In this document: piece by piece, positions 9,147 through 27,011 of the stretch
How positions within the stretch are numbered: the first letter of the stretch is position 1
Layout of the letters: the number at the start of each line of letters is the position of its first letter
NCBI RefSeq assembly: GCF_000943545.1
Contig: NZ_JTHP01000003.1
Coordinates: forward strand, 124,001 to 188,000
Source: Paenibacillus terrae
GTDB lineage: Bacteria > Bacillota > Bacilli > Paenibacillales > Paenibacillaceae
DNA: 64,000 nt
Direction of reading: 5' to 3'
The notes under the pieces: generated by a model
What the model was told of the DNA's origin: nothing
Database searches by the model: none
What the model saw: the letters and a program-made list of their open reading frames with translations, nothing else
Translations under genes and position numbers: made by a program

Positions 9147-9177
9147 TATGTAAGTCCCCCCAAATGAAATATTTGTT

Positions 9178-12015: not shown

Positions 12016-12420
12016 TCATTTAACATATCTATTAAATAACAAATCAATTATTTCCATATAAAATGCAAATATCACTGATAGAAGTGCTAGCCCCATACCC
12101 CACGTTAAAATAAGTACAACAAAAAATAAAAAAGAGAGATCCAAATTAAAATTCTTCGGAGTTGATGCATAAACCATACCGCCGATAATTAGTAATGAGA
12201 ATACTATTAAAAGTGTTGTCAGTAGAAATAGAATAGAAAGTTGAAAAAGATCTAAATTTAATATTTTTCCTATCGAAAGATTTGTGTAAAAGAAAGCCCC
12301 AGATACACCCGATACAGTAAACAAACTACTCACGATTCCAAGTTTATTCGACGAAGTCCCGTTAGAAAATTCTGTCCATAATTCTTTGAAAAATCTTGCT
12401 TTTTTTGTTTCCACATTCAT
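12016..12420 (-). CDS. Three-span membrane protein, 134 residues
   Basis: ATG 12420. Hydrophobic segments lie at about residues 28-47, 58-84 (LSILFLLTTLLIVFSLLIIG) and 95-125 (FLFFVVLILTWGMGLALL). A charged N-terminus precedes the first span. No family recognised. It is 25 bases from the HEPN-like gene on the same strand and could be a membrane partner. Confidence 0.5.
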   Translation of the reverse strand: MNVETKKARFFKELWTEFSNGTSSNKLGIVSSLFTVSGVSGAFFYTNLSIGKILNLDLFQLSILFLLTTLLIVFSLLIIGGMVYASTPKNFNLDLSFLFFVVLILTWGMGLALLSVIFAFYMEIIDLLFNRYVK

Positions 12421-12444
12421 ATGTTAATTCTCTTTTCTTTAATT

Positions 12445-13377
12445 TTAAGAATCTAAATTTCGATTTACTCCATTGAGTTTTAAAATTAAATAATCAAAAA
12501 ACAAAATACATCTCAAAGCATTCATTTTATACCCATATTTAGTATCCGCTCCATGCAAGATAGCATGTCTACTTAAAGGTGACTTAATTATCTGACCATG
12601 TTTAAATGAATCCAACACACAATCTATATAAAAAAGTTTAACCGCATCATCTAATGAAAAACTACCTGTATCTTTTAGAACTTCCTCACCTAATCTTTTC
12701 ATTTCCTTTTGAGAGACATAACCTGTAACATTGCCCCTTTCTATAATTATCCCTTCAATTTGCGGTAATAATGTTGAGATTGCACTGTGATATCTGCCTT
12801 CGAGATAATTAGTAATTGATTCATCTAATATTGCTATCCTTTTGTCTAACCAACCTATTGTTTTCCAATTTTCATAATAAGACTTAATTTTCGAGTCAAA
12901 ATAGTTATTAAGTATTAGTTGATATATTTTTTCTTCCACCTCTTCTTCGCCATTTGCGATATAAAATTCATAAATCCCTTTAAAATCTTTATAATCCATA
13001 TCATGATGAGGGGGGAAATTCAGTTTTATCATTAGCTTCTTATATTGTTCAAAATCTTTAGAGGCCTTTTTTAAAAGCTTAGGTAATGTTCCAAAAGATC
13101 TTTGGATAATATCCTGTTGCTGATTTAAATAATCTGCAATAGGTTTCATATTTCTCAGCAACTGTAAATGTTGCTCTTGCAAATCTCTAAACGGACTCTC
13201 CATTAAACTCTTAAACTCTCTTTGTTGTTTCATCATTTTTCTCATTGAAATATTTAATACATTCTCTAGCGCTTGTTGCTGCCTTTTCCATTCTCTAACT
13301 GGGTTTTTAAACGCTTGACGTATTACTGCTTGCTGCCTTCTAAATTCCTTATACGGATCATTTTGATCCCAGTTCAA
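12445..13377 (-). CDS. HEPN-like protein with Rx4H motif
   Basis: About 310 residues. The start is probably TTG 13377, eight bases after AAGGAG; GTG 13386 is an alternative overlapping that site. The N-terminal 100 residues are Gln/Arg-rich and helical, likely coiled coil (REWKRQQQALENVL). The C-terminal half has YLEGRYHSAISTLLPQIEG and LSRHAILHGAD. The RHAILH segment is a perfect Rx4H, the catalytic signature of HEPN ribonucleases found in abortive-infection and toxin systems. Nuclease activity is inference. Confidence 0.55.
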   Translation of the reverse strand: MNWDQNDPYKEFRRQQAVIRQAFKNPVREWKRQQQALENVLNISMRKMMKQQREFKSLMESPFRDLQEQHLQLLRNMKPIADYLNQQQDIIQRSFGTLPKLLKKASKDFEQYKKLMIKLNFPPHHDMDYKDFKGIYEFYIANGEEEVEEKIYQLILNNYFDSKIKSYYENWKTIGWLDKRIAILDESITNYLEGRYHSAISTLLPQIEGIIIERGNVTGYVSQKEMKRLGEEVLKDTGSFSLDDAVKLFYIDCVLDSFKHGQIIKSPLSRHAILHGADTKYGYKMNALRCILFFDYLILKLNGVNRNLDS

Positions 13378-13418
13378 TTCGTTCACTCCTTATGATTTAC
13401 TTCAAAAGTCTTCAGTAT

Positions 13419-14054
13419 CTAGTTACCTGAAGCGATAAGCTTTTCAGCCTTGCGATCCTTTTTAATCACTTTACTGTTATTCCTATAGTTGTCCCATGAA
13501 TCCAGACTCAAGTAAGGCTCTGCTTCGATAATATCTTTTACTTTGCTGTGCTGTTGTTCTTTGAATAGCTCAATCATTTCAATTAAATCATTGCGATCCA
13601 GCAGCTTCACTCCATTAAAACTGGCCAACTGTTCACACGAGATTGTGTATTTGCTTGAAGTAATGACAATGGACTTCTTAGCTCTGTAATATCGCATAGA
13701 GCTATACACTTCCTGAACTGCGCTCAAACCAACAGGATTGCTTATTGCATACCGTTTAGCCTGAATGACATTGCGGTAGCCTTCTCTATCCGTAAATACC
13801 AAATCTGTTCCAAAATCTCTACTGTCTTGTGTTTTAATCGCATCACTATAGCCTAAACACAGGAACAGCTTGCACAAATAAATTTCAAAATCCTTGCCAT
13901 CTTCCATACGATCTATTTCGTTAATGCCGATTTTGTAAGGATCAATATCCTGCGTTACTTTATATGGTTCCTGAACTCTAGGCTTCTTAAATAAGCGTAG
14001 CAGCACCAAAGCAATCAATACAGCAACGACACACGCTATCACAAATATAGACAA
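13419..14054 (-). CDS. Membrane-anchored Mrr-like PD-(D/E)XK endonuclease
   Basis: 211 residues from TTG 14054 with AAGGAGGAG upstream. Residues 3-22 form a membrane anchor (FVIACVVAVLIALVLLRLF). Then comes a restriction-type domain: MEDGKDFEIYLCKLFLCLGY, DFGTDLVFTD and NVIQAKRY, giving the Asp...Gln-x-Lys core of Mrr_cat proteins. Such proteins cleave modified or foreign DNA or sit beside other defence genes. It is 33 bases from the HEPN gene and may be its operon leader. Confidence 0.7.
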   Translation of the reverse strand: MSIFVIACVVAVLIALVLLRLFKKPRVQEPYKVTQDIDPYKIGINEIDRMEDGKDFEIYLCKLFLCLGYSDAIKTQDSRDFGTDLVFTDREGYRNVIQAKRYAISNPVGLSAVQEVYSSMRYYRAKKSIVITSSKYTISCEQLASFNGVKLLDRNDLIEMIELFKEQQHSKVKDIIEAEPYLSLDSWDNYRNNSKVIKKDRKAEKLIASGN

Positions 14055-14300
14055 AAATGCTCCTCCTTAGCTGCTCTGACTCTTTTTCATACGACCTTAT
14101 AATACAACAGATAGGGACAATTTCCCATATATTTTGGATAATCATAGTAGATACATCGGTATAATTATTTACTGTTTCCTAATTCATTGCAAGCAATAAA
14201 AGAACTTCATTAAATCTTTCACTTTCATTTTTCACCATTTAATTTCCAGTTCTTTTGCATCAAAAACATAGTATATATGGACTATAATTCCTTTTTCATG

Positions 14301-14330
14301 TTGACTATAAGTATATAAAATAAATATACT
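14301..14330 (+). promoter_or_regulatory. Promoter of the secreted-protein gene
   Basis: TTGACT (14301-14306) and TATACT (14325-14330), 18 bases apart, precede AAGGAGG at 14346-14352 and the ATG at 14359. The rest of the 14055-14358 gap is AT-rich with no gene seen. Confidence 0.65.
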
Positions 14331-14358
14331 AGCTGTATATTGAAAAAGGAGGAAAAAA

Positions 14359-15096
14359 ATGAAGAAATTAGTAGCAAAATTTTCAAGCCTGCTTTTAGTT
14401 GGATTAATGTTACTCCCTACAGGTGTACACGCCTCATCTAGTAATGATTCTGTATCAGCAAAACCAGCAGTTGAAGGTGAAATTGTACAGGCTTATCGTG
14501 TAACTGACAATGGGTTAGTTGAACTCAGCCAAGATGAGCTACAAGCTTATAAAGCTCAGGAAGAAGAGGCAAACAGGAGCGCACAATTAGAATTAGACAA
14601 AGATTCTAGCCAAAAAAATTCACAAAATAACGGCGCTATTACACCAAATGCAATTAACGAATACTACTGGCGATATGAACAATCCACATTCAAATCTGCT
14701 GTACCTATGGATTCTCTTAGAAAACGTGTTTCCCCATATGTATATAACCGCACTCAAGATAATGCTACAAGAGCAATTTCCTCTTCTACAAGTCAGACAT
14801 GGCAAGCCAATATTAATCTTTCGTATGAGCACAAAAATGCTGTTACAGGAACTTTAGGAGGTGGCTGGTCTAAAACCACTACTTTTAATGATACAACAAC
14901 CACTACTATAAGACCTAATTATATGAGTTGGGCTGAATTTACGCCTATTATGGATAAATCTTTCGGTTATTTGAAAGAATATTATTCATTGAATGGTTCA
15001 GTAAGAACAAATAATTACACTGAGATATATATTGCCAGAAAAGTTAATGATCAAACAGATGGTATCTTAACTGTTAAAACTGCCCCTATTAATTAA
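14359..15096 (+). CDS. Secreted protein of unknown function
   Basis: 245 residues with a clear signal peptide: MKKLVAKF, a hydrophobic core LLLVGLMLLP, and a likely cut after VHA at about residue 25. The mature part has a charged spacer rich in Gln, Asn and Glu, then a Thr/Ser-rich beta-like domain (SSTSQTWQANINLSYEHK; GTLGGGWSKTTTF). Alternating Thr stretches recall beta pore-forming proteins, but I cannot assign it. It is the only plus-strand gene in this part of the island apart from the XRE gene, with its own promoter and terminator. Confidence 0.65.
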   Translation: MKKLVAKFSSLLLVGLMLLPTGVHASSSNDSVSAKPAVEGEIVQAYRVTDNGLVELSQDELQAYKAQEEEANRSAQLELDKDSSQKNSQNNGAITPNAINEYYWRYEQSTFKSAVPMDSLRKRVSPYVYNRTQDNATRAISSSTSQTWQANINLSYEHKNAVTGTLGGGWSKTTTFNDTTTTTIRPNYMSWAEFTPIMDKSFGYLKEYYSLNGSVRTNNYTEIYIARKVNDQTDGILTVKTAPIN

Positions 15097-15099
15097 CCT

Positions 15100-15133
15100 A
15101 AAGGAGGTAGCCCACAGAGGGATGCCTCCTTTT
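15100..15133 (+). terminator. Terminator of the secreted-protein gene
   Basis: AAAGGAGG (15100-15107) pairs with CCTCCTTT (15125-15132), followed by TTC; it begins four bases after the stop. Confidence 0.7.
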
Positions 15134-15172
15134 CTTATTGTTTCCCTATATAGTTCATAATAAGTATAGCGG

Positions 15173-15397
15173 TTATTTTTCCTTATCAATTTCACCTTTA
15201 ATAATGTATATAACTCCAATTATTAAAGATACTATACTTAATATAAGTAAAATATCATAATCCCCCAATCGAACCAATGCCCTTTTAAGAGGTACATCTG
15301 CGTAGTTTACTACACCACTTGTTACAATAAAATATCTAGAGACAAACAATATCGTTGCTATAAAACAAAATGAGACTCCAGCCGCTCTTCTATTCAT
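15173..15397 (-). CDS. Small two-span membrane protein, 74 residues
   Basis: ATG 15397 with AAAGGAG upstream. It has hydrophobic segments at residues 6-28 and 48-68 (LILSIVSLIIGVIYIIKG) joined by a short polar loop with NYADVPLKRALVR. The length and layout fit small conserved Bacillales membrane proteins; no function is known to me. Confidence 0.5.
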   Translation of the reverse strand: MNRRAAGVSFCFIATILFVSRYFIVTSGVVNYADVPLKRALVRLGDYDILLILSIVSLIIGVIYIIKGEIDKEK

Positions 15398-15492
15398 TAA
15401 TTCAGCTCCTTTAGTGGTATTGTAAAAATATCTATTTATGTTTAATTATACATCATCATTTTTTTATCAGCAACGAACTATAATATTGCTAA

Positions 15493-15520
15493 CAAAAAAG
15501 CACCTATCCCTAGGCGCTTA
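15493..15520 (-). terminator. Terminator of module A
   Basis: On the minus strand AGCGCCTA and TAGGTGCT form a stem (one mismatch) followed by TTTTTTG. It closes the leftward unit of the 15.5-17.8 kb module. Confidence 0.6.
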
Positions 15521-15561
15521 TATTCATATCAAAGGGGGGGCTAAATTTGACGCTCCCTGAA

Positions 15562-15717
15562 CTATATACACATTCCCTCTTGTTTCAGCTTCTTCTTCAT
15601 GCGTCGAATCACAGTGAGTTGCTTCCTAATCTCCAGCCTTCTCTCAAGCTCTATATCCTTCCCTGCTGCCTCTTTAACCAACTGCCTATACATTAAGTCA
15701 AGCCAGTCCATGTCCAT
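15562..15717 (-). CDS. Small helical protein, 51 residues (module A)
   Basis: I choose ATG 15717 (MDMDWLDLMYRQLVKE), which follows the stop of the 35-residue gene by one base and has AAAGG upstream. The product is very basic at its end (RRMKKKLKQEG) and predicted helical. No family recognised; it looks translationally coupled to the gene before it. No counterpart is seen in the decayed module at 58.7 kb. Confidence 0.45.
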   Translation of the reverse strand: MDMDWLDLMYRQLVKEAAGKDIELERRLEIRKQLTVIRRMKKKLKQEGMCI

Positions 15718-15718
15718 G

Positions 15719-15826
15719 TTACATAGCCTTTCCGTTGGCCTGAACCAGCAGCTTGAGATTGATCCATTCATTATTCCACGTTTTCACATACAGTCTTCCT
15801 TTAATTAACCGTCCAGCTTTGTACAT
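15719..15826 (-). CDS. 35-residue conserved small protein (module A copy)
   Basis: ATG 15826 with AAAGGAGC seven bases upstream. The product begins MYKAGRLIKGRLYVKTW and ends LVQANGKAM. A paralog of identical length at 58727-58834 shares about 21 of 35 positions, including the MYK-G-LI-G-LY-KT frame and WI-LK-LVQ. Conservation of length, start context and sequence shows that it is a real gene. It is basic and may be a small DNA- or RNA-binding factor (inference). Confidence 0.65.
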   Translation of the reverse strand: MYKAGRLIKGRLYVKTWNNEWINLKLLVQANGKAM

Positions 15827-16112
15827 GTCGATTGCTCCTTTATTTTTTGAATGATAGCTATATGAAAATTAGTATTATTTAATCAATGATTCAAACCTCA
15901 TTCATTCGTACCCTACCGTTCCCATTAACCAGACACCAAATAATTTTATATCAATAGATTAATCAGTGTTTTGAGTAATAGAAGTCAAATTAACATTAAC
16001 CTCAACCAACAAAAAATCAGAAGCCAAGAGTTGGATAAGCGCCAGCGCAGACATGCTCTAAATACTGTATATACACATCTAAAGATATAAAGATCTAAGA
16101 ACTACTAACTAG

Positions 16113-16207
16113 ACCTCAAATCGTGCAGCATGAATTGAGGTAGACTCTTGCATAAATTGAGGGTGAACATTGCACGATTTGAGGTAAGATGTTGCATGAA
16201 TTGCGGT
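16113..16207. repeat. 22-bp iteron array with one inverted copy
   Basis: Four direct copies of a TTGCA(T/C)(G/A)A(A/T)TTGAGGT-type motif begin at 16126, 16148, 16170 and 16192, an exact 22-base period. An inverted copy ACCTCAAATCGTGCA lies at 16113-16127. The array is non-coding, 287 bases upstream of the 35-residue gene and just after the stop of the 108-residue gene. Regular iterons are typical of plasmid replication origins or cooperative operators. The rest of 15833-16112 shows no gene. Confidence 0.75.
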
Positions 16208-16228
16208 TAGGTAAAATAGGCTGATTTA

Positions 16229-16555
16229 TCAATAATCTGAGCTATTGTAATGTGCCTTTGCTTCCAGAACACTTACCTCATCGAATACACGATACATTGC
16301 GCCTATCACACTTTTAATCTCTTTCTCGTAGAAATTCAACCTTTCCATTGCCATGATTGCATAGCCCATAGCAACATTGTTTGACCATTCATGGAAACCG
16401 AATATAGATGTTTGTTCATAACCAGCCTTGTATGCTTCAGCTAATCGTTTCTCTATATCATCCAGCAGATTAATTTGAGCAGCGTTGACACCATTAGGAA
16501 AGTAACGACGTTCAATCTCTATACGCTGTGACATTGGAAATGGTACTTGTGTCAT
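16229..16555 (-). CDS. Hypothetical protein, 108 residues (module A)
   Basis: ATG 16555 with AAAAAGGAGG upstream. Soluble, mostly helical, with INLLDDIEKRLAEAYKAGY and YAIMAMERLNFYEKEIKSV. No family recognised. It is third in the leftward unit after the 216- and 149-residue genes, and immediately before the iteron array. Confidence 0.55.
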   Translation of the reverse strand: MTQVPFPMSQRIEIERRYFPNGVNAAQINLLDDIEKRLAEAYKAGYEQTSIFGFHEWSNNVAMGYAIMAMERLNFYEKEIKSVIGAMYRVFDEVSVLEAKAHYNSSDY

Positions 16556-16641
16556 GCAAATATCCTCCTTTTTTATTGTTAATACGTTGTTAGGTGATTA
16601 ATATGTTGAATGGTTTGTGTATTTACCAGCCATTTGTACGG

Positions 16642-17091
16642 TTAGGCGAACAATGCAATTTTCGTCATAGAAGAATACTTGCCCTGCTCTACGTAGGTAT
16701 TATAAATGCGTTCAGGATCATCACATGTGAAACGTTCCATCTTCCAGTCATGCGCTGGTTCTTGGAACAACTTTTCGAATGCGGCTTTCTTATCACGATA
16801 GTAATCATGTACGAAAGTGAATTTATCAGTATAGCTATGTGCGTTCACATCTTCTTTCCACATTTTCACGATCAAGGAAAAAGGCGAATCTTCATACAAC
16901 ATCCGATTAGCAAACTCGTTCATACGTGAAACAGACTTAAGGTGGAATCTCATCAGGTCGATAAGGATAACGGCTGTAGGCTTGATTTCAAATTCGATCA
17001 GCAGTTGTTCAAATACAGCGTTCATGGCAGACACCTCTTTGTTGTTAGTGGTGGATTGAGTTGGTTGCAGTTTTCTCAGTGCGATTGTCAT
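16642..17091 (-). CDS. Hypothetical protein, 149 residues (module A)
   Basis: ATG 17091 with GGAAG upstream; an internal ATG at 17025 (MNAVFEQLLIEFEIKP) with GAGGTG is an alternative. Soluble and helical with KPTAVILIDLMRFHLK and FVHDYYRDKKAAFEKLF. Unknown function. It lies 45 bases after the 216-residue gene. Confidence 0.55.
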   Translation of the reverse strand: MTIALRKLQPTQSTTNNKEVSAMNAVFEQLLIEFEIKPTAVILIDLMRFHLKSVSRMNEFANRMLYEDSPFSLIVKMWKEDVNAHSYTDKFTFVHDYYRDKKAAFEKLFQEPAHDWKMERFTCDDPERIYNTYVEQGKYSSMTKIALFA

Positions 17092-17136
17092 ATATGTATC
17101 TTCCCCATTCGGTTTATAATTGTGTCATGTGACACA

Positions 17137-17787
17137 TTAGCAGCCACAAGCCATATTCATAGCTTCATCCTCAGCACGCTCAATCGCCTGAATAAAAGGC
17201 ATCAAAGGTTCATCATGTTTGTACTGGATAATCTTCTCAGCATTACCTCCAGCGTCACGCCATTCCCAATATGCGATGATATCAATGGATTGTAGGAAAT
17301 ACATAGTCAGAGCTTCCACGGGATTTACACTGTACAATTGCATAAAGTGTTCATCTGTCAGTTGATCATGCTGGAGGTATTCATCTTTCATTTGATGGAG
17401 TAAAAGAAATCTACTTTCACGATTAACATTGACGATACGACTTACATATTCATTGCGGCGTTCAACTGTGTTCAAGATGATTTGCATGTCATTACGGATA
17501 CGCCAAGCTTCAGGGGAAATATCGAGCATATTGATTAGGGCATTGATGGACAAGTTAGAATTGTACGGTGCTGGCGCAATAATACGAGTCCAATTGTCAT
17601 CATTACCTTGCTCAAACACTTGAATTGCGTCTGAGACATTCAGACCAATAGTTTGCCATTTGCGATTTAAAGCGTCTGTTATGTGGTAATATTGTAGCTC
17701 TTTTTCAGCAGCTTCTTCTTCTGATTCCCATACTTGATTCATGCGTACAATGTCGATGATGGTTATCTCATTAACTTTTTTGGACAT
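17137..17787 (-). CDS. Hypothetical protein, 216 residues (lead gene of module A)
   Basis: ATG 17787 with GAGGAGG upstream. It contains YYHITDALNRKWQTIGLNVSD, ILNTVERRNEYVSRIVNVN and, at the end, PFIQAIERAEDEAMNMACGC. All three blocks reappear, broken by deletions and frameshifts, at 58935-59376. No motif of a known enzyme is visible. It is divergent from an XRE repressor-like gene, which suggests direct control. An intergenic inverted repeat GCGGTTA/TAACCGC (17884-17915) is a candidate operator. Confidence 0.65.
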   Translation of the reverse strand: MSKKVNEITIIDIVRMNQVWESEEEAAEKELQYYHITDALNRKWQTIGLNVSDAIQVFEQGNDDNWTRIIAPAPYNSNLSINALINMLDISPEAWRIRNDMQIILNTVERRNEYVSRIVNVNRESRFLLLHQMKDEYLQHDQLTDEHFMQLYSVNPVEALTMYFLQSIDIIAYWEWRDAGGNAEKIIQYKHDEPLMPFIQAIERAEDEAMNMACGC

Positions 17788-17962
17788 TGGGTATCTTCCT
17801 CCTCAGGAAATTGGTAAAATGACACTAGCGAGTGCCAAAGAAAGTACTTTAAACTCCCTTGCAAAATAACACTATACGCACAGGCGGTTAATTTGCACAA
17901 ATCAATCATAACCGCTTGTACGTATTTTTTCAATAGATTTTTATCTGGAGGATGTCCATTTA

Positions 17963-18178
17963 ATGAGATTAACAATAAAATTGAAAGAAGTAATGAAAGA
18001 AAAAGGAATTACCCAATTGGAATTGGCTAAGAAAGCAAATGTGCGACAAGCTGCAATATCCGAGCTATGTAGAAATGCTCGTGAAGAAGTTAATTTAGCA
18101 ATGCTGACTAGGATAGCAAAAGCATTAAATATTAATGATATATCTGTATTGTTGCAGTTCGAGGAAACAGAAGAATAA
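17963..18178 (+). CDS. XRE-family HTH regulator (module A)
   Basis: 71 residues, a single Cro/CI-type domain: LKEVMKEKGITQLELAKKA, ANVRQAAISELCRN and a C-terminal LNINDISVLL. ATG 17963 is preceded by GGAGG. Small proteins of this type act as dimeric repressors; the divergent 216-residue gene is the obvious target. Confidence 0.85.
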   Translation: MRLTIKLKEVMKEKGITQLELAKKANVRQAAISELCRNAREEVNLAMLTRIAKALNINDISVLLQFEETEE

Positions 18179-18219
18179 ATCTACATTCCACTAAATTTAA
18201 CTACATAGACACAGCAAAG

Positions 18220-18247
18220 AGCCTAGACATGTTTAGTCATCTAGGCT
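18220..18247 (+). terminator. Hairpin terminator after the XRE gene
   Basis: AGCCTAGA (18220-18227) pairs with TCTAGGCT (18240-18247), followed by TATTTGTT. It may work in both directions between convergent genes. Confidence 0.55.
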
Positions 18248-18361
18248 TATTTGTTGCATATCATAGTCATTATGATATTGGTATTTTAAAGCTGGATTTT
18301 GGCTCTAAAGGAACAAACGTTGATAGTTTAAAATCTACATTTCAGCCAAATATCTAATGAA

Positions 18362-19120
18362 TTATACAAGTTCAATTTTTAGAACGTCTGATGCAGGTAC
18401 TTCCCTACCTTCACCATCAAAACATGTATTGGAGTATACAGAAAACTTTTCATTGTGAATTACTTTGTAAAGATAAAATAAAATTGGTTCTATGACATGG
18501 TAATCGGTATCGTTTGATCTAAAATGTACTATACAGGGAACAGTACTTTGTGAATAAATTTTAAGAAGATCTACTTTATATCTTGATTCAAATGCATGAC
18601 AAATATCTTCGATTATTTCCGGTGATTTAAGGTAATCATGATTTCTTATCTCGCTTGCTCTAAAAGCAACTTCCTTAATCAACATAGCATATGGTCCCCA
18701 ATGCACTGAATTAGATGTTTTAAGTTTGTACAGGTAACCAGAGTGCCCGATATTAGAAATTGTGTTTTTAAAGTCGTTCCAGTTGGTCTCCGAGATGGAG
18801 CCTTTAGCCAACGAATATAAGAACTCCCATAAATGTTCTATTTGACCCCCCAATGGTTTTATAGCTCCCTTGAATTTTTCATTCAAAGGCATTCTTGTTA
18901 GATGAAACCAGTGTATCTCTGTAATTTCCCTTCTATCACTAAATTTTTCATTGAATATCTTATATAAACATCTGTCCCCAGTTTGCTCGTAGTTATTTTT
19001 TTTATAGTATTCATCCATATCAAAATCACGCAAAGTCTTATGAATCTCTTCTGACGAGACATTATAATATTCAGATATGGTTTCTAATGAGGACTCAAAT
19101 GAATTACAATTAATAATCAT
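18362..19120 (-). CDS. Hypothetical protein, 252 residues
   Basis: ATG 19120. Soluble, charged. It includes EITEIHWFHLTRMPLNEKF and a central helical part with LGGQIEHLWEFLYSLAKGS. Not recognised. It follows the methyltransferase-like gene by 39 bases and is likely co-transcribed; the pair may form an accessory system. Confidence 0.5.
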   Translation of the reverse strand: MIINCNSFESSLETISEYYNVSSEEIHKTLRDFDMDEYYKKNNYEQTGDRCLYKIFNEKFSDRREITEIHWFHLTRMPLNEKFKGAIKPLGGQIEHLWEFLYSLAKGSISETNWNDFKNTISNIGHSGYLYKLKTSNSVHWGPYAMLIKEVAFRASEIRNHDYLKSPEIIEDICHAFESRYKVDLLKIYSQSTVPCIVHFRSNDTDYHVIEPILFYLYKVIHNEKFSVYSNTCFDGEGREVPASDVLKIELV

Positions 19121-19159
19121 TATTTTTTCACTACCCTTCTTAATTAAACTTGCATTTTA

Positions 19160-20032
19160 TCATTGATTTTGCAAAACATAGGCGAGGACAATATAGTCTC
19201 TGTCTTCTTCGTCATTGTGTAAGAATTCCCACAGTAGATTAAACATAGTTCTTACTGCAAACATATTAGTGACCTCTGGAGGGACGGCACTGCCTATAAT
19301 GTACAATCCATCCCTATAAAACTGTGGTAAATGACTAAGTACTAAGTTCAGATTACTCCAGTCACCTTTAATAATTTCGCTTACAGGTTTTGTTGCTGGA
19401 CTGATCTCACCAGTGATATTATTTCGTTTTAGTTCAAGTGTATCAGTCATATGTACAATAACACCATTAGATACAAGTTTATTCTTTAACTGCGAAAACA
19501 ATTTTTGGTGAATTCTTTGCGATAAACCGTGTAAATCCTCACCTAATTTATGAGAAACATTTCCTCCCTGGAATTCATTTGTTCCATAAAAATAACTTGT
19601 TAACAATTGTGTTGAAAAACAACAGTTCACTACTAAATCGTATTTCTTATTAAGTTTTGATAGGTCAATAACAGGTTGAATGTTAGTTGCTTTGTTAATT
19701 AATTCTTTTGCACTTTTCACTTGATTACTTATCCCCGATAAATCAATTATTTCTTTGTTGAATTTATTCTTATCACTAACCCTTGACATAAATCTATCCA
19801 GTGCACTTTCGTCAAGGTCAACAATCGTAATACTATTAAATAAAGATTCAAGCACCTCCACTGGAAGATCGTTACCGTTCCCCACTCCAAGCAAAAGCAG
19901 ATTCCCATTGTTGACTCCATAGCGTTCAATGCATGTCTGAATCACTTGCCCAATAGACCTTCTATATTGAGCCCATTCTTCCCATCTATCTTTTGTATCA
20001 AAATTCATCAGAGCAAGTTGTGTAGATACCAT
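19160..20032 (-). CDS. SAM-dependent methyltransferase-like protein
   Basis: 290 residues from ATG 20032. LLLLGVGNGNDLPVEVL is a class I methyltransferase motif I, followed by ITIVDLDESALDRFM (motif II with acidic residue) and YDLVVNCCFSTQLL. The N-terminus carries EEWAQYRRSIGQVIQTC. Substrate unknown. It precedes the 252-residue gene. Confidence 0.6.
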   Translation of the reverse strand: MVSTQLALMNFDTKDRWEEWAQYRRSIGQVIQTCIERYGVNNGNLLLLGVGNGNDLPVEVLESLFNSITIVDLDESALDRFMSRVSDKNKFNKEIIDLSGISNQVKSAKELINKATNIQPVIDLSKLNKKYDLVVNCCFSTQLLTSYFYGTNEFQGGNVSHKLGEDLHGLSQRIHQKLFSQLKNKLVSNGVIVHMTDTLELKRNNITGEISPATKPVSEIIKGDWSNLNLVLSHLPQFYRDGLYIIGSAVPPEVTNMFAVRTMFNLLWEFLHNDEEDRDYIVLAYVLQNQ

Positions 20033-20094
20033 TTATTTGTGCCTCCATGATTAAAGTGAATTTTAATTCCTGAATACTTATACTTTGTGATTGG

Positions 20095-20334
20095 TTAATG
20101 CCCTCATCAAAAAATCCTCTGCGTTGCGCTGCAAACAATGTCTTGTACGTATTCTTACGTCCCACTGGGGTTATGCATGTAAACTCACGCAAGAAATGCT
20201 CAAAAAAGTATTTCACTTCATTAGGAAATCTTTGTCATCTGTATCTGTATTGCTTCGTAGTATGTACGAGCGACCACAAAGCCATCTGGACAGTCTCTGA
20301 GGTCGTCTACGTAAAGGTTAATTTTATTTGCCAT
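20095..20334 (-). pseudogene. Broken cyclic-phosphate-processing receiver (cREC) gene
   Basis: The 5' part, ATG 20334 to TAA 20221, encodes MANKINLYVDDLRDCPDGF and stops after 37 residues. The next frame (from 20216) carries the matching C-terminal part, VKYFFEHF then TPVGRKNTYKTLFAAQRRGFF. Full-length cREC-type proteins join these through a segment with a conserved aspartate loop, which is missing here. So an internal deletion and a frame change have destroyed the gene. Confidence 0.6.
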
Positions 20335-20358
20335 TATACACCTCATTCAATAAATATT

Positions 20359-20838
20359 TTAATCGAAACCTTGCACTTCAATTGCAATCAATCTGTCATA
20401 GTCATCTCTAAATCTGATAATCAATGTTCCAATATCATGTTCAATTGAATCCAACTTTTCCTTCGTAATAATTTCTCTTGTGATCAGTCTATCTAATGGG
20501 CCATCTTTTTTTATAAACAATTCTATAGCATCAAGACGGAATTCAGCTTTCACTATAATATAATTACTTAGATTGCTATTCGACTGAATATACTTAAGTT
20601 TTTTTAAATGGAAATTGTTTATTTGTCCAACAAGACAGTCAAATTTGCGTTTCGCTTTCTTTTTAAGAAGAAGCACATAAAGAACAGATCCCCCACATAT
20701 TAAAAAAAGATATATAAAGGCTGCCCAGAGTGAGCCACTTCCAAGGACAATTCCAATTGACGGAACGATCAAAAAGACAAACACTAGTCCTTCATTCGCA
20801 CTTATATTTACAGGCCCTCCACCAAATCGACCAATCAT
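20359..20838 (-). CDS. Two-span membrane protein, about 159 residues
   Basis: I choose ATG 20838 (MIGRFGGGPVNIS), with GAGAGGG upstream, over 20928. Two adjacent membrane spans: LVFVFLIVPSIGIVLG and LWAAFIYLFLICGGSVLYVL. A cytoplasmic domain follows with IIVKAEFRLDAIELFI and a C-terminal TLIIRFRDDYDRLIAIEV. Unknown role. It partners the repeat protein upstream by position. Confidence 0.5.
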   Translation of the reverse strand: MIGRFGGGPVNISANEGLVFVFLIVPSIGIVLGSGSLWAAFIYLFLICGGSVLYVLLLKKKAKRKFDCLVGQINNFHLKKLKYIQSNSNLSNYIIVKAEFRLDAIELFIKKDGPLDRLITREIITKEKLDSIEHDIGTLIIRFRDDYDRLIAIEVQGFD

Positions 20839-20881
20839 AGCCCTCTCACCCTTCAGAAAATCTTCGTGATAAACACATTTT

Positions 20882-21316
20882 TTATCGAATATTTTTAACT
20901 TTAATCGACTGTTGTACACCATCAACATTTAGTCTATCTCCGCTTTGTGAGGCATAAATAATTACATTTGGTCTATAAGCATAGTGGTATAAATAGTTAT
21001 ACTCATCTTGCTGCCAAATTTGGCCGTTTGTTAATTCAAACTTAGTATCTCCTGACCAACCCTCAAAAATATTATTTATTTGACACTCTATTACGTCATT
21101 TACTCTTTTAACAGCTATTCGATCATTCATGCCTTCAACTTCAAGATAATATACATTGTTTTCCTCTACTACTCTTGCTTTGGGACGATATGCATATTTG
21201 TATCTGTATGCATAACTCGACTGAATCCAATAGTGATTAGCCCCCAATTTAAATAGTGTTTCCCCGTTCCATCCGTAAAATGCACCATTAATATAACTAT
21301 CTACAATAACATTAAT
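20882..21316 (-). CDS. Two-repeat YHYAYRP-type protein with apparent ATT start
   Basis: The protein consists of two matching units: GAFYGWNGETLFKLGANHYW, then YAYRYKYAYRPKARV, and again FEGWSGDTKFELTNGQIW, then YLYHYAYRPNVIIY. The first unit is cut if TTG 21247 is used. The frame stays open to a stop at 21338-21340 and holds no ATG, GTG, TTG or CTG upstream of 21247. A strong AGGAGG at 21325-21330 is eight bases from an in-frame ATT at 21316. So translation seems to begin at ATT (or ACG 21319). I know this repeat from Clostridium and Paenibacillus proteins of unknown role. Confidence 0.6.
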   Translation of the reverse strand: MNVIVDSYINGAFYGWNGETLFKLGANHYWIQSSYAYRYKYAYRPKARVVEENNVYYLEVEGMNDRIAVKRVNDVIECQINNIFEGWSGDTKFELTNGQIWQQDEYNYLYHYAYRPNVIIYASQSGDRLNVDGVQQSIKVKNIR

Positions 21317-21366
21317 CGTAATCGCCTCCTTTTTAAGCTAGCCATTTTATATGAAATTCGCTCTTG

Positions 21367-22908
21367 TTAGAGTGTTTTCCAATCGTCATAATATGCATCC
21401 ATTGTAATTGGCATTACGAACTTATCTCCCTGAGTCTTTGATCTAATTTGTTCCTCTCTATTAACTAATAAAGATAGCAAAATAATTGCCTCACGAGAGT
21501 ATTTCATCAATTCCAATGTCGCGGATTTAAAATCTATAAGATGTACTGACTGGGCAAGGGTATCTTTGAAACTGTCGGTTCTGTGAATAAACGGATCGTG
21601 GATTTTAAGGTAGCGATGTTCCAAAGCATTTCTTATTCCAGATAAAACCTCGATAGATGGGTCTAGATATTTATGTTTAACCTGCTTTTTTGCAATATCT
21701 TTACATAGCCAATAAAACCCTATTCCCGGAAAATTATAAGTATCCTGGTCAGTTATTCGCTTTTTTAAATCAATCTTAAAATCATATCCCTGCCGTCCAA
21801 ATTTTTTATTCTGCCAAATTGATTTATAAGATACATCTTGTTCTTTTATCCCTATATCAAAGTAATCATTAATAAAATAAGCTATTCTATCAAATATTGA
21901 GTATAGACTCCTATATCCAAATTTTATTTTCTCAATTCCAATACCATAAATAGGATAATCCAATGTGTTATATATAAAAACTTCTTTATCTGAAAAATGC
22001 GGGGTATTATCATTAATTCCTTCATAAATCATAAATCTTGCAGATACATATTCTTGTTTTAACTGATTAAACAATCCATGATATTTAGGGCCTATATTTA
22101 TGTCTGTTACAATATCGGGGAGATGGAGGCAGTCACTTGCAACCATTGATACATTGAAATAATCGTTTAATGTATTCAAAAATAAATTATTATCTAGACA
22201 CCATTTTCTATAATCTTGTTCTTGCTCAGTTGTGCCTAGTGAAAATTCATCAAAAATATTCTGGCTTACCCAATCTCTTATGCGCTCAACTTCAATATTG
22301 AAGGATCTTCGTGCATGATCATCTAAATCGGGACTATCTAGAGCTTTGAGTAGTAACTGCTGTGCTTCATTAAGCAAAACTTGTTTATGTCCATCATCAT
22401 AATCATATTGAGCATATGTTATTAACTTTAACCCCATATTTGCTATAGCCATTGGAAAACCTTGTGAAACTCCGAACTTTAGTTGATCAATTGACTTAAT
22501 CAAACGTCCACTGCTATATAATTCATTGGCATAGTTTGTAGCGGTCATTAACAAATAGCTAGAATAATGAAGCTCATCTTCCTCTGTTGCAGAATCCCAT
22601 TGTTTCTTATCATTTTTATACATATTAAAAAGCTCTAAAGATATCCTAAATAAATACAAACTTAACTCAAACTCTTCTTCATTGTTTTTCTCATCTGAAT
22701 ATTCCAGTAGTCCTTTATAAATTAGCCCAATTTTGTTTCCTTGAGATGTTGCTCCATGATAAGCGATTATTGCCTTCTCAAGATCATTATATTCGGATGA
22801 ATTTACATGTCCAAGGCATTCTTCTACTATCGTTTCTAGTGTTTGAATATCTTGATCGTCAAACGCTTTATCTGCCCTAATAGCAATGCTAAGCACATTT
22901 GAATTCAT
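21367..22908 (-). CDS. LA2681-like HEPN protein
   Basis: 513 residues from ATG 22908 with GAGGAGG upstream. The N-terminal 230 residues are helical and TPR-like (ATNYANELYSSGRLIKSIDQL). The C-terminal half has YSIFDRIAYFINDYFDIG and VLSGIRNALEHRYLKIHD; RNALEH is an Rx4H motif as in the HEPN domain of LA2681-type proteins. HEPN proteins of this type are proposed ribonucleases in stress and phage defence. Activity is inferred from the motif. Confidence 0.65.
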   Translation of the reverse strand: MNSNVLSIAIRADKAFDDQDIQTLETIVEECLGHVNSSEYNDLEKAIIAYHGATSQGNKIGLIYKGLLEYSDEKNNEEEFELSLYLFRISLELFNMYKNDKKQWDSATEEDELHYSSYLLMTATNYANELYSSGRLIKSIDQLKFGVSQGFPMAIANMGLKLITYAQYDYDDGHKQVLLNEAQQLLLKALDSPDLDDHARRSFNIEVERIRDWVSQNIFDEFSLGTTEQEQDYRKWCLDNNLFLNTLNDYFNVSMVASDCLHLPDIVTDINIGPKYHGLFNQLKQEYVSARFMIYEGINDNTPHFSDKEVFIYNTLDYPIYGIGIEKIKFGYRSLYSIFDRIAYFINDYFDIGIKEQDVSYKSIWQNKKFGRQGYDFKIDLKKRITDQDTYNFPGIGFYWLCKDIAKKQVKHKYLDPSIEVLSGIRNALEHRYLKIHDPFIHRTDSFKDTLAQSVHLIDFKSATLELMKYSREAIILLSLLVNREEQIRSKTQGDKFVMPITMDAYYDDWKTL

Positions 22909-22959
22909 TTACGAACTATCCTCCTCTTATATCTTTTCTAATAACAAGTCATTTTACGG

Positions 22960-23103
22960 CTATTTTCTCAAATCTTTTTCAGTATAATATTTAAAACCGC
23001 CACCATTTTCTAACTTCACAGTGTATCAGTAATCACGATACTCATATATCATTCCTTTTCCATCCGGTGTAATAACAACTTCCCCCACCACATATCTGTT
23101 CAC
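22960..23103 (-). pseudogene. Small gene interrupted by an in-frame TGA
   Basis: AGGAGG then GTG at 23103 starts a frame of 47 codons, MNRYVVGEVVITPDGKGM... that hits TGA at 23026-23028 after 25 codons and goes on as YTVKLENGGGFKYYTEKD. The two halves read as one KOW/SH3-like small protein with a Trp codon expected at the stop. Point nonsense mutation is the simplest view; stop-codon readthrough cannot be excluded. Confidence 0.5.
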
Positions 23104-23145
23104 TATTTAACCTCCTTCGATTTTAGATCAAATGAAATAGTTATT

Positions 23146-24486
23146 TCAATTGATCTCATACCTTAAAAAGAGCTTACTAAAAAAATCAAATACCATTTTA
23201 TCTACACTGTTTTCATTTATAAATTCAAATCCTCCGAATCTGAAAACTTCATACCCTAAAAGTCTAAGATCTCTATCAGCTTTCATCATCTCAGCATATT
23301 TCTTAGGGTTTGGTTTATTATCCTCAGAAGAATAGTGTTGTTTACCATCAATCTCGATTACGATTCGAACGTTATTTGGTAATAGCAATAAAAAGTCCAT
23401 TCGTTGTCTCACTAAGCGTGTTTCATTCGGTACTATTTTAGTAACATAGGGGTCATAATGAAGATATACCTGAGGTATCAAAGCAGGTAAACTATTACCC
23501 ATTCTTTCTCTAAAGTGCTTGAAATAAAATTTAAAAAAGTTTCTTTCTGGCCCTTTATCTAATGACCTAATCAAACGCTTGTACATCGCTCGTTCAACAT
23601 TTATTCCTTGCTCCTCAGATTGCTTATCTCCCCACCAAGTTACTAATTCTCTCCACAATAATCCTTCCAAAATTGGCAGATCATACACTAGACAAAACTC
23701 TTGATTTTTAACTATAGCTATCTCATTGTTAATCGAATCGCTTATAACAATTTCAGGTTTAGGGCCATCTGCAGCGAATATAAGATTTTTAAATTCTCCT
23801 TTAACACCTTTAGTAGTTTTTATAATGGTGTATAATGGATAACCTGATATCTGTGAGGTCACTTGCATTTTGTATCCATCTTTAACTAAATGATAATTCA
23901 ATTTTTCAATAAATTGAGGATCAACCTCGCTTCTGACACGCGGATGGACAATTTGTTCTGTGAAACGAATGAATTTTTCATCTGTAATATTATAAATCTC
24001 AAGAACATCTTCAAATAATTCTTGAAATGACCAATCATCATTTGCTATCATGTGCTGAGTTATGTCCCCAGTTGCATTAAAAAACCTCGAATCTGTTGAA
24101 GTCATGGAATCTAAATCCCATGTTCTCTTCAGAAAGTCAATTAAATTCATATCACCTTCAATGTACCCTAGCGACAATATTTCTTTCACAATGTTTTTTC
24201 TTGTTATCTGTGTGATATTAAATATTCCCCTTGGAGAGATCGTATTTAGCATTCTATTTAAATCAACAGAATTATAATCTTTTGCCACTCTCTTGGCTAA
24301 ATCAATTAGAAATAATTGATCTTTACCTCTTAGTCTACGTTCTACATATTTAGACTTACCCGCAAAGGCCTCGCTTTCTTCACCATCGTCTAAGCCGTAA
24401 CTAGAACAGATGTCTGGTATATCGTATGATTTCACCTCAGATGCTAGAAAAGATGCTATATGTTGAACTAACTCTATATGATTCAT
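23146..24486 (-). CDS. AbiJ-like protein with C-terminal PD-(D/E)XK domain
   Basis: 446 residues from ATG 24486 with GAGGTG upstream. The N-terminal 60 residues (IASFLASEVKSYDIPDICSSY; LDDGEESEAFAGKSKYVE) match what I recall as the AbiJ-NTD3 pattern of abortive-infection proteins. The C-terminal part reads QRMDFLLLLPNNVRIVIEIDGKQHY, then DRDLRLLGYEVFRFGGFE, a DUF559/Vsr-like nuclease core with D and ExDGK. A phage-triggered nuclease effector is likely. Confidence 0.65.
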   Translation of the reverse strand: MNHIELVQHIASFLASEVKSYDIPDICSSYGLDDGEESEAFAGKSKYVERRLRGKDQLFLIDLAKRVAKDYNSVDLNRMLNTISPRGIFNITQITRKNIVKEILSLGYIEGDMNLIDFLKRTWDLDSMTSTDSRFFNATGDITQHMIANDDWSFQELFEDVLEIYNITDEKFIRFTEQIVHPRVRSEVDPQFIEKLNYHLVKDGYKMQVTSQISGYPLYTIIKTTKGVKGEFKNLIFAADGPKPEIVISDSINNEIAIVKNQEFCLVYDLPILEGLLWRELVTWWGDKQSEEQGINVERAMYKRLIRSLDKGPERNFFKFYFKHFRERMGNSLPALIPQVYLHYDPYVTKIVPNETRLVRQRMDFLLLLPNNVRIVIEIDGKQHYSSEDNKPNPKKYAEMMKADRDLRLLGYEVFRFGGFEFINENSVDKMVFDFFSKLFLRYEIN

Positions 24487-24648
24487 TTTTCACCTCGAAA
24501 TCTGAATAATGATGAAATAAACCTTTAATAATAGGAACAATATACCATATATCAGCACACGTTCGAGTATAAATTTTTTGATTCCTTACACTTTACAATG
24601 ACATACTCCTTAGACGCTCTCACGTTCGTTCTAAAGCTGTTATTCACG

Positions 24649-24861
24649 TTATGAATATGGAAGTCTCAAAATTCCAGTAACTCTCACCTGTGTTGTCTTA
24701 ACGCTCTCTTTTGAGCTTATCTCATTTACTATACTCTCCTGCTGATATTCGTAATCTTTCAATCTAATTTCATAATTCATAGTTGCAGTTTTTTTCTCCA
24801 TAACAAACTTTCCAAAGCCATTGTTACGAAGAATGCTATACCGTACAATCATTTTGCCCAT
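24649..24861 (-). CDS. Island-end small gene fused in frame to truncated cpaF
   Basis: ATG 24861 (MGKMIVRYSILRNN) or 24867 follows AAGGAG at 24871-24877, so this 70-residue protein has its own ribosome site although it reads in frame with the broken cpaF. It contains VMEKKTATMNYEIRLKDYEY and ends VRVTGILRLPYS. It is the last gene before the island junction. In SPbeta-like elements the gene at this place is often the recombination directionality factor, but I see no family match. Confidence 0.45.
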   Translation of the reverse strand: MGKMIVRYSILRNNGFGKFVMEKKTATMNYEIRLKDYEYQQESIVNEISSKESVKTTQVRVTGILRLPYS

Positions 24862-24889
24862 AAACATCTGTCTCCTTTTTAATAACCTT

Positions 24890-24915
24890 TTAATAGATTT
24901 GTCATGTAACATATC
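24890..24915. mobile_element. Right junction of the genomic island inside cpaF
   Basis: The cpaF frame follows the family through GEVRGSEALDML (codon ending 24907) and then loses all similarity (HDKSIKRLLKRR) where relatives continue with Gln-Ala-Met-Asn-Thr-Gly-His. Base composition also falls sharply left of this point. The insertion therefore lies at about 24904-24907. The opposite junction with the rest of cpaF is outside the window. Site-specific integration by a large recombinase is inferred. Confidence 0.65.
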
Positions 24916-25764
24916 CAACGCCTCACTCCCCCTGACCTCACCCACCACAATGCGATTGGGACGCATACGCAGGGAGGAACGAATCAGATCACGAATCGTG
25001 ATTTCGCCCTTCCCCTCGGTGTTGGCATTCCGTGTTTCCATGGAAACCAGATTAGGGACAGTTACAATTTGCAGCTCTGCTGAGTCCTCAATCGTAATAA
25101 TCCGTTCCGATGGCGGGATAAATTGGGATAATGCATTCAGAAAGGTCGTTTTACCAGAGCCCGTACCACCGCTTATAAAAATATTGTACTTGCTGCGTAC
25201 CAGATCCTTGAGCATATTGGCGGTTTCTGTATCCAGTGCGTCCATTCGTATCAAGTCATCCATCGTCATCGGACGCTCGGGAAACTTCCGTATCGTCATC
25301 GTCGGTCCCTTGAGAGCAACTGGCGGTAGCACAATATTTACACGTGACCCGTCCTTCAATCGGGCGTCGACAATCGGTGAAGACTCATTCACAATCCGAT
25401 TCACTCCGGCTACAATCGTTTGGATCAAATCCTCCAGTCGCTCACGGGATTCAAATTGATCGGGTGCCTGGATCACCTCACCCGCCCGCTCCACAAAAAT
25501 TTCCCGATGACTATTAATCATAATTTCCGTAACCGTGGGGTCATCAATCAACGGCTGGAGCACATCCAGCCCACGGAAGGAATTAAAAATTTTACGGACC
25601 AGCGCATGCTTCTCTCTGGAGGTCAAACCTGCCAGCTCTGTGTCATGCAAAATTCGATTTTCAATATGCCGCACTAACTCTGCATCCCCTACCGAGGACG
25701 TGACGTCCAGGCCTCCCCGGATATCCGCTCGTAGTGCACGAAACCGTTCTTCATTCATGTTCAT
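24904..25764 (-). pseudogene. cpaF: CpaF/TadA-type pilus ATPase, 5' portion cut by the island
   Basis: About 287 residues of a CpaF-family secretion ATPase remain. The N-terminal domain has ALVRKIFNSFRGLDVLQPL and DPTVTEIMINSHREIFVE. GGTGSGKTTFLNAL is Walker A, ITIEDSAELQI the Asp box, and RIVVGEVRGSEALDM Walker B. The usual His box and C-terminal subdomain are absent, replaced by island sequence. ATG 25764 lies nine bases after the cpaE stop, so the pair is an operon. Normally it drives assembly of a Flp/Tad pilus at the membrane. With its catalytic C-lobe missing it should be inactive unless the island excises. Confidence 0.85.
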
Positions 25765-25773: not shown

Positions 25774-26928
25774 TTAAGACCAAGCGGCGGGCGGCTGTGT
25801 TACAGTCTCCACATTCAGCAGCTCGCGGCACAGCTGGCGAATTTCCCGCTGATAAATCGGCGAACTAAGCAGCAGCTCACGATGCTGCATCTGCTTCCAT
25901 GAAGGAATGTAGGGCAGCGCTCCGCTCAGCTCCATAAAGTCCCGAGGCAAGGTGTTAACCATCGTCCCCATATAACGGTTCACCACAAAACGGGTTTTGG
26001 TCAGCATGACTTCAAGTCCTTCAGGCTGCATGGCTTCCAGAACATCCAGCCATAGCCCGCACTTGTGCATGCTCATTAAATCGTCCGCCAGCAGCCAGAT
26101 CAGCTTATGGCTGGCTTCGAGTACAGCCTGAGCCCGGTCGCCATTTTCGGATTCGCCATCTACGATTACAACATCATACTGTCCGCTCTCGGCAATCGTC
26201 CGAATCAGCTCTACCGCCTCATCAGAGGTCATGTCCATCAGTTCCTTGCGATTATCAACAGGTTGAAAGGTGTCGGCCTGGATTTCAGAACGGCGCACAC
26301 AATACGAAGCAATAGATAAGGGATTTCCGTCATGCCCCGCCTTGAGGTCATATAGCAGTCTGGACAGTCCTTCCCCTTCTGCTCCATTGGAACTGCCGGA
26401 ACCTGTGAACAACGAGCTTGAATCCATCGTTTCCAAATTCAAATAAAAAACCGAATAGCCCTCGTTTCCCAATTGCTTGGCTATATTAAGTGCGGCCGTT
26501 GTCTTGCCCAGACCGCCGGAAGCCGCTACCATGCCAATAATCATTCCGCTTTCCCGGCTGTTCACGCTCTGCTGCCCACTTGTTCGCTGTCTCGCCGTTT
26601 CCAAAATAAAACCCACCAGCTCAGACAAGGGCTGATATTTTAATAAAGGTTGTCCGTATTCTCTCACCTGCTCTCCCTCGTGCAGCACCAGACAAGGAAT
26701 ATCAGAAGCCTCCCGATCTGTCCAGAGATTCAAAAAAGCCGCTTCACCCACCACCACATCCGGCTTTTTCATCCCAGCCGTTTCCATCATGTATTGGCGA
26801 AATGCCTCTGGCTGCGAAAATGCCGTTACTCTCAGCCTCCTGGCGTACTCGCTTCCGTGCACATAATTCAGCAGCGGCTCGATATAATCCCGGCTCTCTA
26901 CAGCCAGAACCACCTTTACCGGAATCAT
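25774..26928 (-). CDS. cpaE: CpaE/TadZ-like pilus localisation ATPase
   Basis: About 384 residues from ATG 26928 (MIPVKVVLAV), nine bases after AAGGGG; frames from 26937 or 26970 are less likely. Residues 1-110 form a receiver-like alpha/beta domain. MVAASGGLGKTTAALNIAKQL is a deviant Walker A of the MinD/ParA type, and YDVVIVDGESE the matching Walker B region. CpaE-like proteins place the Tad machinery at the pole or membrane. It heads the operon with the split cpaF and is preceded by a leader with a terminator-like hairpin. Confidence 0.8.
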   Translation of the reverse strand: MIPVKVVLAVESRDYIEPLLNYVHGSEYARRLRVTAFSQPEAFRQYMMETAGMKKPDVVVGEAAFLNLWTDREASDIPCLVLHEGEQVREYGQPLLKYQPLSELVGFILETARQRTSGQQSVNSRESGMIIGMVAASGGLGKTTAALNIAKQLGNEGYSVFYLNLETMDSSSLFTGSGSSNGAEGEGLSRLLYDLKAGHDGNPLSIASYCVRRSEIQADTFQPVDNRKELMDMTSDEAVELIRTIAESGQYDVVIVDGESENGDRAQAVLEASHKLIWLLADDLMSMHKCGLWLDVLEAMQPEGLEVMLTKTRFVVNRYMGTMVNTLPRDFMELSGALPYIPSWKQMQHRELLLSSPIYQREIRQLCRELLNVETVTQPPAAWS

Positions 26929-26960
26929 GATGCTCATCCCCTTTCCTATCACAACAACGC

Positions 26961-27011
26961 AAAAAAGCACCGTTCATCAAACCGTACATACATACGGTTG
27001 GTGAACGGTGC
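26961..27011 (-). terminator. Terminator-like leader hairpin ahead of cpaE
   Basis: On the minus strand GCACCGTTCA pairs with TGAACGGTGC (10 bp) and inside it AACCGTA pairs with TACGGTT (7 bp), loop TGTATG, then TTTTTT. It lies between the predicted promoter (27040-27068) and the cpaE ribosome site, so it can act as an attenuator as well as a stop for upstream transcripts. Confidence 0.7.

Follow-up and report, generated by a model that had tools for sequence, protein, structure and literature searches.

The tad locus and its divided ATPase gene

The window analysed here is a stretch of 64,000 nucleotides of Paenibacillus terrae DNA (C3:124001-188000 of G000, a 6.5 Mb draft genome). It contains a reverse-strand open reading frame (24649-25764, 371 aa) that encodes the Tad pilus ATPase CpaF as far as codon 286 (window position 24907) and unrelated sequence thereafter (Table 1). 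The Pfam T2SSE domain covers residues 67-285 of this frame (8e-41), and the top NCBIfam match of the cpaF 5' part is a TadA-family ATPase, under its cut-off. Compared with the intact gene of a relative (L003), the cpaF 5' DNA is 94.7% identical over 855 nt, with an abrupt end at GATATGTTA/CA. An initial annotation of the window had placed the departure from the CpaF family near 24905, after Walker A and Walker B, and the crossover dinucleotide CA at 24905-24906 agrees with this position.

Table 1. Features of the island, its junctions and the adjoining tad genes. Positions are those of the window unless a contig is named.
Feature	Position	Strand	Basis
cpaF (Tad pilus ATPase), codons 1-286	24907..25764	-	Pfam T2SSE
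cpaF, codons 287-417	G000 C3:116089-116481, left of window	-	search with the 3' part of the intact relative
CpaE/TadZ-like ParA-family protein, host, upstream neighbour of cpaF	25774..26970	-	Pfam CbiA and AAA_31
Island, part inside the window	1..24906	.	junction comparison, GC, cpaF 3' part beyond
Large serine recombinase (LSR) gene	C3:116536-118257, left of window	-	Resolvase, Recombinase and Zn_ribbon domains
Crossover dinucleotide CA in attL	24905..24906	-	junction comparison
Same CA in attR	C3:116480-116481		junction comparison
attL, approximate limits (cpaF half-site and element half-site)	24873..24938	-	arm agreement
Small gene, type 1, 70-72 aa	24649..24867	-	start codon at nt 40 or 46 past the crossover
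AbiJ_NTD3-domain protein, 446 aa	23146..24486	-	Pfam PF18860, 4.7e-51
LA2681-like HEPN protein, 513 aa	21367..22908	-	Pfam PF18733, 1.2e-66; no PADLOC match
Mrr-type restriction endonuclease domain protein, 211 aa	13419..14054	-	Pfam PF04471, 8.9e-25
Small serine resolvase/invertase, 208 aa, not the integrase	6244..6870	-	Pfam PF00239 only
Regulator, 457 aa	4134..5507	-	HTH_3 under cut-off; homologues in G082 and G057 elements
Propeptide-like ORF, 47 aa, overlapping the end of the regulator	4016..4159	-	comparable ORFs in G082 and G057

The truncated CpaF retains Walker A and Walker B and is missing STGHAN, the next motif in the intact relative, which we take to be the His box of CpaF. The motif bears that name in PMC11300603, and in the Caulobacter structure described there the nucleotide lies 4-6 Å from Walker B and His-box residues alike. 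Because the His box is lost, the 5' fragment is very unlikely to be functional, and the inserted island very probably blocks the Tad pilus.

The remainder of cpaF, tadB and tadC, which the initial annotation expected to the left of the window, are present on the same contig past the island, so that a 3' cpaF half does exist beyond the left edge. The cpaF 5' part terminates at C3:148907, and the 3' part, followed by tadB, occupies C3:114982-116481 on the same strand, with 96% identity to the intact relative. The order after the cpaF 3' part is tadB, tadC, flp-like and tadE-like genes, and these downstream genes are open, encoding two T2SSF proteins, a 63-aa Flp-like pilin and TadE-like proteins. 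Upstream, the order of a CpaE/TadZ-like gene followed by cpaF is also found in L003. The only other CpaF match in G000 at E <= 0.001 has 26% identity and a Pfam T2SSE match under the cut-off. It is a distant T2SSE-like ATPase of 611 aa at L002 (G000 C58:16063-19533), which may mark a second pilus-like locus, and frames of 611-618 aa that match in a like manner are present in many genomes of the genus.

Island ends, recombinase and attachment sites

The insert in cpaF measures 32,425 bp, with 24,906 bp in the window and the other 7.5 kb to its left. The initial annotation had described the sequence past the break as AT-rich, and the GC content of the island is 0.35 in the window and 0.32 left of it. 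The flanks stand at 0.50 (the 9 kb on the right side) and 0.49. The predicted integrase was located at the far end of the island, where a large serine recombinase of 573 aa is encoded 54 bp from the crossover. This is the recombinase class of SprA of SPbeta (PMC4191935), and in PHROGs it matches the phrog_95 integrase (2e-97).

The two junctions read ...GATATGTTA/CA/TGACAAATC (attL) and ...AACATTGTA/CA/GGCGATG (attR). When joined, the cpaF flanks equal an intact gene (L004), with identity over 38 nt around the joint, and the G000 flanks align to the same-species genome G081 on either side of the insertion site. The joined element ends form an imperfect dyad attP centred on CA. Set against the reverse complement of the other end, the element half-site in the window matches at 20 of 30 positions, and none of 2000 shuffles did as well. 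Across nine elements, 17-23 of the 30 positions are shared by the two attP arms, a score reached by 0-3 of 2000 shuffles; for G302 the plain count is 19 of 30. The CA crossover is common to all 11 elements with both junctions read. Given attL, attR, the shared CA and the dyad attP, recombination of attL with attR would restore cpaF in frame. The proposal that a large island had been inserted site-specifically is thus established at the level of sequence by the 32,425 bp insert, its recombinase and attachment sites sharing CA, and cpaF could be restored in frame. We consider it probable that the left part of the window is an integrative element inserted by its own recombinase into codon 287 of cpaF. 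An assembly artefact was ruled out, the same junction being present in independent genomes.

We searched 33 of the 50 island ORFs against Pfam (a 619-aa ORF as its 489-aa part), and among these identified no match above the cut-off to capsid, tail or terminase genes, with one Caudo_TAP match under it, and no relaxase or conjugation genes of the kind that mark ICEs or IMEs. The PHROGs comparison covered 10 island ORFs. Viral contigs and phage records held no relatives of the recombinase or distant ones only, and a scan of genome contigs gave one distant match. Among the best 10 of 276 matches in plasmid records, only a replicon of Paenibacillus cellulosilyticus was close (41%). In the literature, the matches listed included no report of an LSR insertion in cpaF, the search covering texts other than the supplementary target tables of PMC10083194.

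Distribution of the insertion across genomes

Within the genus, cpaF was uncut in 69 of 75 genomes, including G081 of the same species and G065, in which it carries a stop codon. It was cut at codon 287 in five (G000, G082, G064, G049 and, with the 5' part only, G057) and at a second site in one. Recombinase matches at E <= 1e-90 were identified in 11 of 394 genomes of the family, G000's own counted, and ten of these are cut at codon 287, among them G302, whose cpaF is spread over two contigs; the other, G208, has a related LSR and an intact cpaF. Large ORFs resembling a type I restriction system stand beside this recombinase (L134, C177:40001-58000). A profile search across the order gave matches in 10 of 392 genomes and so added three, G479, G511 and G460. 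In G479, which belongs to another family and was found afterwards, using a small-gene profile built earlier, an LSR is present and a 19,480 bp element, with a type-2 small gene at the junction, interrupts cpaF at codon 287.

Altogether, 12 genomes are cut at codon 287, 11 with both cpaF parts and G057. Beyond G000, these comprise related elements of 18-42 kb in ten genomes and a remnant in G057. By the labels of the genome set, in which most species are represented by a single genome, they belong to two families and six genera. Element DNA was present at the break in each genome found to be cut at codon 287, and the truncated gene was not encountered in relatives without an element, the contrary case that the initial annotation had considered. 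The recombinase gene lies within 0.7 kb of a junction in 10 of the 11 elements with both junctions, the exception being G302 (9.2 kb). We rejected the idea that the elements of G250, G186, G311 and G360 are reversed, since CA has the same sense throughout and only the recombinase gene changes its side of attP. G311 is the P. cellulosilyticus KACC 14175 replicon NZ_CP054613 (identical over 23,733 bp). By gene sizes and order only, the G348 element is prophage-like; family searches on the elements of other genomes covered eight proteins.

In the recombinase tree, G348 groups with G000 and G082, and G064/G049 with the G250 group, whereas in the cpaF tree G348 groups with G311 and G360. Two rows in this comparison have long branches, and it was made without the recombinase relatives of G511 and G460. 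The disagreement between the trees points to transfer, and the elements seem to move between genera.

We additionally identified a distinct 54 kb element in G045 (C68:681687-737174, L074-L076), which carries many phage-like genes and lies about 26 bp downstream of the codon-287 site. Its recombinase (513 aa) has 27% identity to that of the window, so that two recombinase lineages use cpaF as a target. In G511 and G460 cpaF is intact, and the recombinase relatives adjoin a truncated comM (Mg_chelatase, 2.4e-33) and a tadE-like gene (tblastn, 1.9e-32), respectively; the product of the latter has no Pfam match. The G460 region (C11:358001-412000, L167-L170) may include the end of a pilin gene between the recombinase and tadE-like genes, and its intact cpaF lies about 160 kb from the recombinase, possibly reflecting a very large element in an flp gene.

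A small gene at the junction

The ribosome site and small gene that the initial annotation recognised past the break correspond to an AAGGAG motif and the ORF that it precedes, which in G000 is in frame with cpaF. Seven of the 12 codon-287 elements have a small gene oriented as cpaF, with its start 44-50 nt from the crossover; it is of type 1 in G000, G057 and G082 and of type 2 in G064, G049, G250 and G479. In G000 and G057 there is a further in-frame ATG at nt 40, and the G082 copy stands behind a stop codon. A fusion of CpaF with the small protein was ruled out, as the frame is open in G000 and G057 and stops after 5-21 codons in the other five. Comparison of type 1 between its three genomes gave dN of 0.05-0.09 and dS of about 0.34-0.35, and of type 2 between G049 and G064 dN of 0.09 and dS of 0.74. 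No similarity was detected between type-1 and type-2 proteins, type 1 has no Pfam family, and neither viral contigs nor phage records contained relatives of the small genes. A single-sequence structure model of the small protein was unusable (pLDDT 44).

A profile of the G049, G064 and G250 small genes finds G348, G208 and G186 (E <= 5.5e-4) among 4,757 frames, and does not find G360 and G311. The larger A3 profile contains G348, G186, G360 and G311 themselves, so that the independent matches are those of the three-sequence profile only. The G348 relative lies 5.9 kb inside its element, those of G186, G311 and G360 are weak and situated elsewhere, and in G208 about 0.2 kb separate the end of the matching 142-aa ORF from the recombinase, which lies downstream on the same strand. 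G302 has no relative of either type. A general link of the type-1 protein to large serine recombinases was not found: of the 13 other loci with its relatives, one has a recombinase less than about 1.5 kb away. A second type-1 small gene stands in G082 beside a comM/Mg-chelatase fragment (C16:840001-862000; L102, L135, L136), in a region with island-like genes in which no LSR was recognised.

Excision by a large serine recombinase needs a directionality factor, and the small gene inside the 5' junction is the likeliest candidate, a role that we infer from its position only. The layout is shared with SPbeta in spsM of Bacillus subtilis, where, as in the island, recombinase and small gene stand at opposite margins and flank attP in the circle (PMC8270828); SPbeta likewise inserts in a coding gene, at att sites with inverted repeats (PMC4191935). 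The comparison with SPbeta is one of layout. SPbeta differs in being a prophage, whereas the island has no phage structural genes among the ORFs searched, and in its target, a spore-polysaccharide gene rather than a Tad pilus ATPase gene. Furthermore, sprB has its own promoters, whereas promoter prediction gave no sigma-70-like site on the small gene's strand in the interval from the crossover to this gene. With a gap of 40-50 nt from crossover to start, the inserted small gene is most likely transcribed from the tad operon.

A second parallel is gin in gerE of Bacillus cereus, which resembles the island in being non-phage, in its size (28.6 kb) and in its restriction-type cargo; it encodes an LSR and a 42-aa directionality factor, and its excision restores gerE (PMC5595907). 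Unlike the island, gin has three serine recombinase genes, acts in sporulation and uses another target, and the two are likened by description rather than by GirC or GirX sequence. Prophages and other elements in comK, comYC, comFA and comM provide a third, as their integrases lead into DNA-uptake genes and related integrases differ in target (PMC4774983). The island departs from these in targeting the Tad ATPase, for which a part in DNA uptake is putative in these bacteria.

Cargo of the island

The AbiJ-domain, HEPN and Mrr-type proteins suggest a defence cargo. In PADLOC, partial matches were obtained for two of the 10 island proteins compared, the Mrr-type protein matching the ZorD and mREase_IV models in part. 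The pair of regulator and propeptide-like ORF is common to the elements of G000, G082 and G057, and the propeptide-like ORFs of G082 and G057 end in THGGA. This pair is similar, by layout only, to the Alo peptide systems of P. polymyxa (PMC7425212), and with its exported-propeptide-like ORF may possibly constitute an Alo/arbitrium-like peptide signal carried by the island.

A WXG100-domain protein (378 aa) followed by a small gene (2298-3798, reverse strand) has the layout of a secreted toxin with its immunity gene, and a similar protein is found in the comM-side region of G082.

Evidence on excision

The open recombinase frame, attL, attR and the in-frame joint form an anatomy that permits excision. 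Searches of the cut genomes recovered the cpaF parts separately and no restored joint. The 3' part in G000 has omega values of 0.042-0.062 against G082, G007, G006 and G004, with no sign of relaxed constraint, and of 0.143 against G081, whose gene end is frame-shifted; the 3' parts are without stops in all 11 genomes that have both parts. This unrelaxed state fits a young insertion and reversibility alike.

In G057 the left end of the element is kept, and element DNA follows the cpaF 5' part. A protein search found no cpaF 3' part in this genome, and a DNA search found no cpaF 3' part with tadB, the latter without a positive control of its own, a near-identical query having matched elsewhere. 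A block of G081 (1383596-1397325) has no match in the compared G057 region, and a loss of tadC, flp and TadE-like genes, which follows only from this missing block, appears to accompany it. Because G057 is without the cpaF 3' part and tadB, the insertion can become permanent.

Competing explanations for the insertion in cpaF

One explanation is a reversible switch that serves the host, the island leaving under set conditions, with cpaF restored and the Tad pilus made. The in-frame joint, the unrelaxed and stop-free 3' parts, and the precedents of spsM (SPbeta) and gerE (gin), each with an LSR and a small factor (PMC4191935, PMC5595907), are consistent with it. We consider it unlikely, as the site is occupied in only 5 of 75 genus genomes, G057 lacks the cpaF 3' part and tadB, and young insertions would leave the cpaF parts intact too. 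Still less probable is a fixed and degraded island in a cpaF that is already a pseudogene. G057, keeping only the left end of the element without the cpaF 3' part and tadB, and the second region of G082, with its type-1 small gene and no recognised LSR beside comM, would fit such decay, but in G000 the recombinase frame, cpaF parts and downstream tad genes are open and both att sites are present.

Alternatively, the elements may profit by silencing a pilus used in DNA uptake, since the cell could then not replace the island by recombination with outside DNA. We know of no demonstration of Tad-dependent transformation in these bacteria. The more distant recombinase relatives beside a truncated comM (G511) and a tadE-like gene (G460) would accord with this reading, although the G460 protein is without a Pfam match, and although G000 encodes a second, very distant T2SSE-like ATPase (26% identity). 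That parasitic elements may silence DNA uptake is an idea already established, competence genes being disrupted by elements in many species (PMC4774983); such genes are also enriched among LSR targets (PMC10083194). In Liberibacter crescens, a cpaF mutant lost twitching and took up less DNA (PMC8513845). In P. polymyxa, comGB and comGC were not found and its Flp pilus was proposed to take their place, but a comGA homologue is also listed (PMC8370563). By gene content, the window's host is probably close to P. polymyxa. On balance, uptake silencing is conceivable though short of probable. Level with it stands the tentative view that cpaF is a neutral address, with pilus loss a side effect. The stretch after Walker B, presumably a specially conserved one, would offer a dependable attachment site, and the distinct G045 element, with a different recombinase, chose a position only about 26 bp further on. 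Against neutrality, the occurrence of two lineages in one pilus gene, and of relatives beside comM and a tadE-like gene, points to something beyond sequence conservation, although the cases are few. Uptake silencing and a neutral site are both at least as plausible as the host-serving switch.

In the mechanism that we propose, the element's own recombinase would insert the island into codon 287, the tad operon would transcribe the small gene while the island is inserted, the small gene would supply the directionality factor for excision, and recombination of attL with attR would restore cpaF in frame. Most likely, the island is maintained as a mobile element, either benefiting from the lost pilus or tolerating its absence, and not as a host-serving switch.

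An extension of this mechanism, to which we give little credence, is excision on demand: activation of the tad operon would produce the factor, the island would leave with cpaF made whole in the cell concerned, and the element would escape ahead of its replacement by incoming DNA. This is suggested by the position of the small gene, since the 40-50 nt that separate it from the crossover could hardly accommodate a separate promoter, and two small families with no detected similarity at the same place in seven elements suggest convergence. Mobile elements have been proposed to activate when cells turn competent (PMC4774983), and excision on demand, if true, would unite a reversible gene switch with element activation at competence.

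The elements represent a recombinase lineage whose attachment site is fixed within the motor gene of a widespread type of pilus, providing natural variants in six genera and two families. With exact junctions and a candidate factor available, two questions become testable: the possible gain to mobile elements from a disabled Tad pilus, and the possible role of Tad pili in DNA uptake by these Gram-positive bacteria. The recombinases of this lineage and their att sites are, in addition, possible tools for genome engineering.

Other features of the window

To the right of cpaF, an 825-aa protein (27460-29937, reverse strand) has two KdpD sensor domains, with no kinase domain found in it. An isolated AT-rich kilobase (59001-60000) has a GC content of 0.34 between neighbours of 0.48 and 0.49. 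Finally, six tRNA genes lie at 44540-50495, including two copies of tRNA-Leu (gag) that are 3.4 kb apart.
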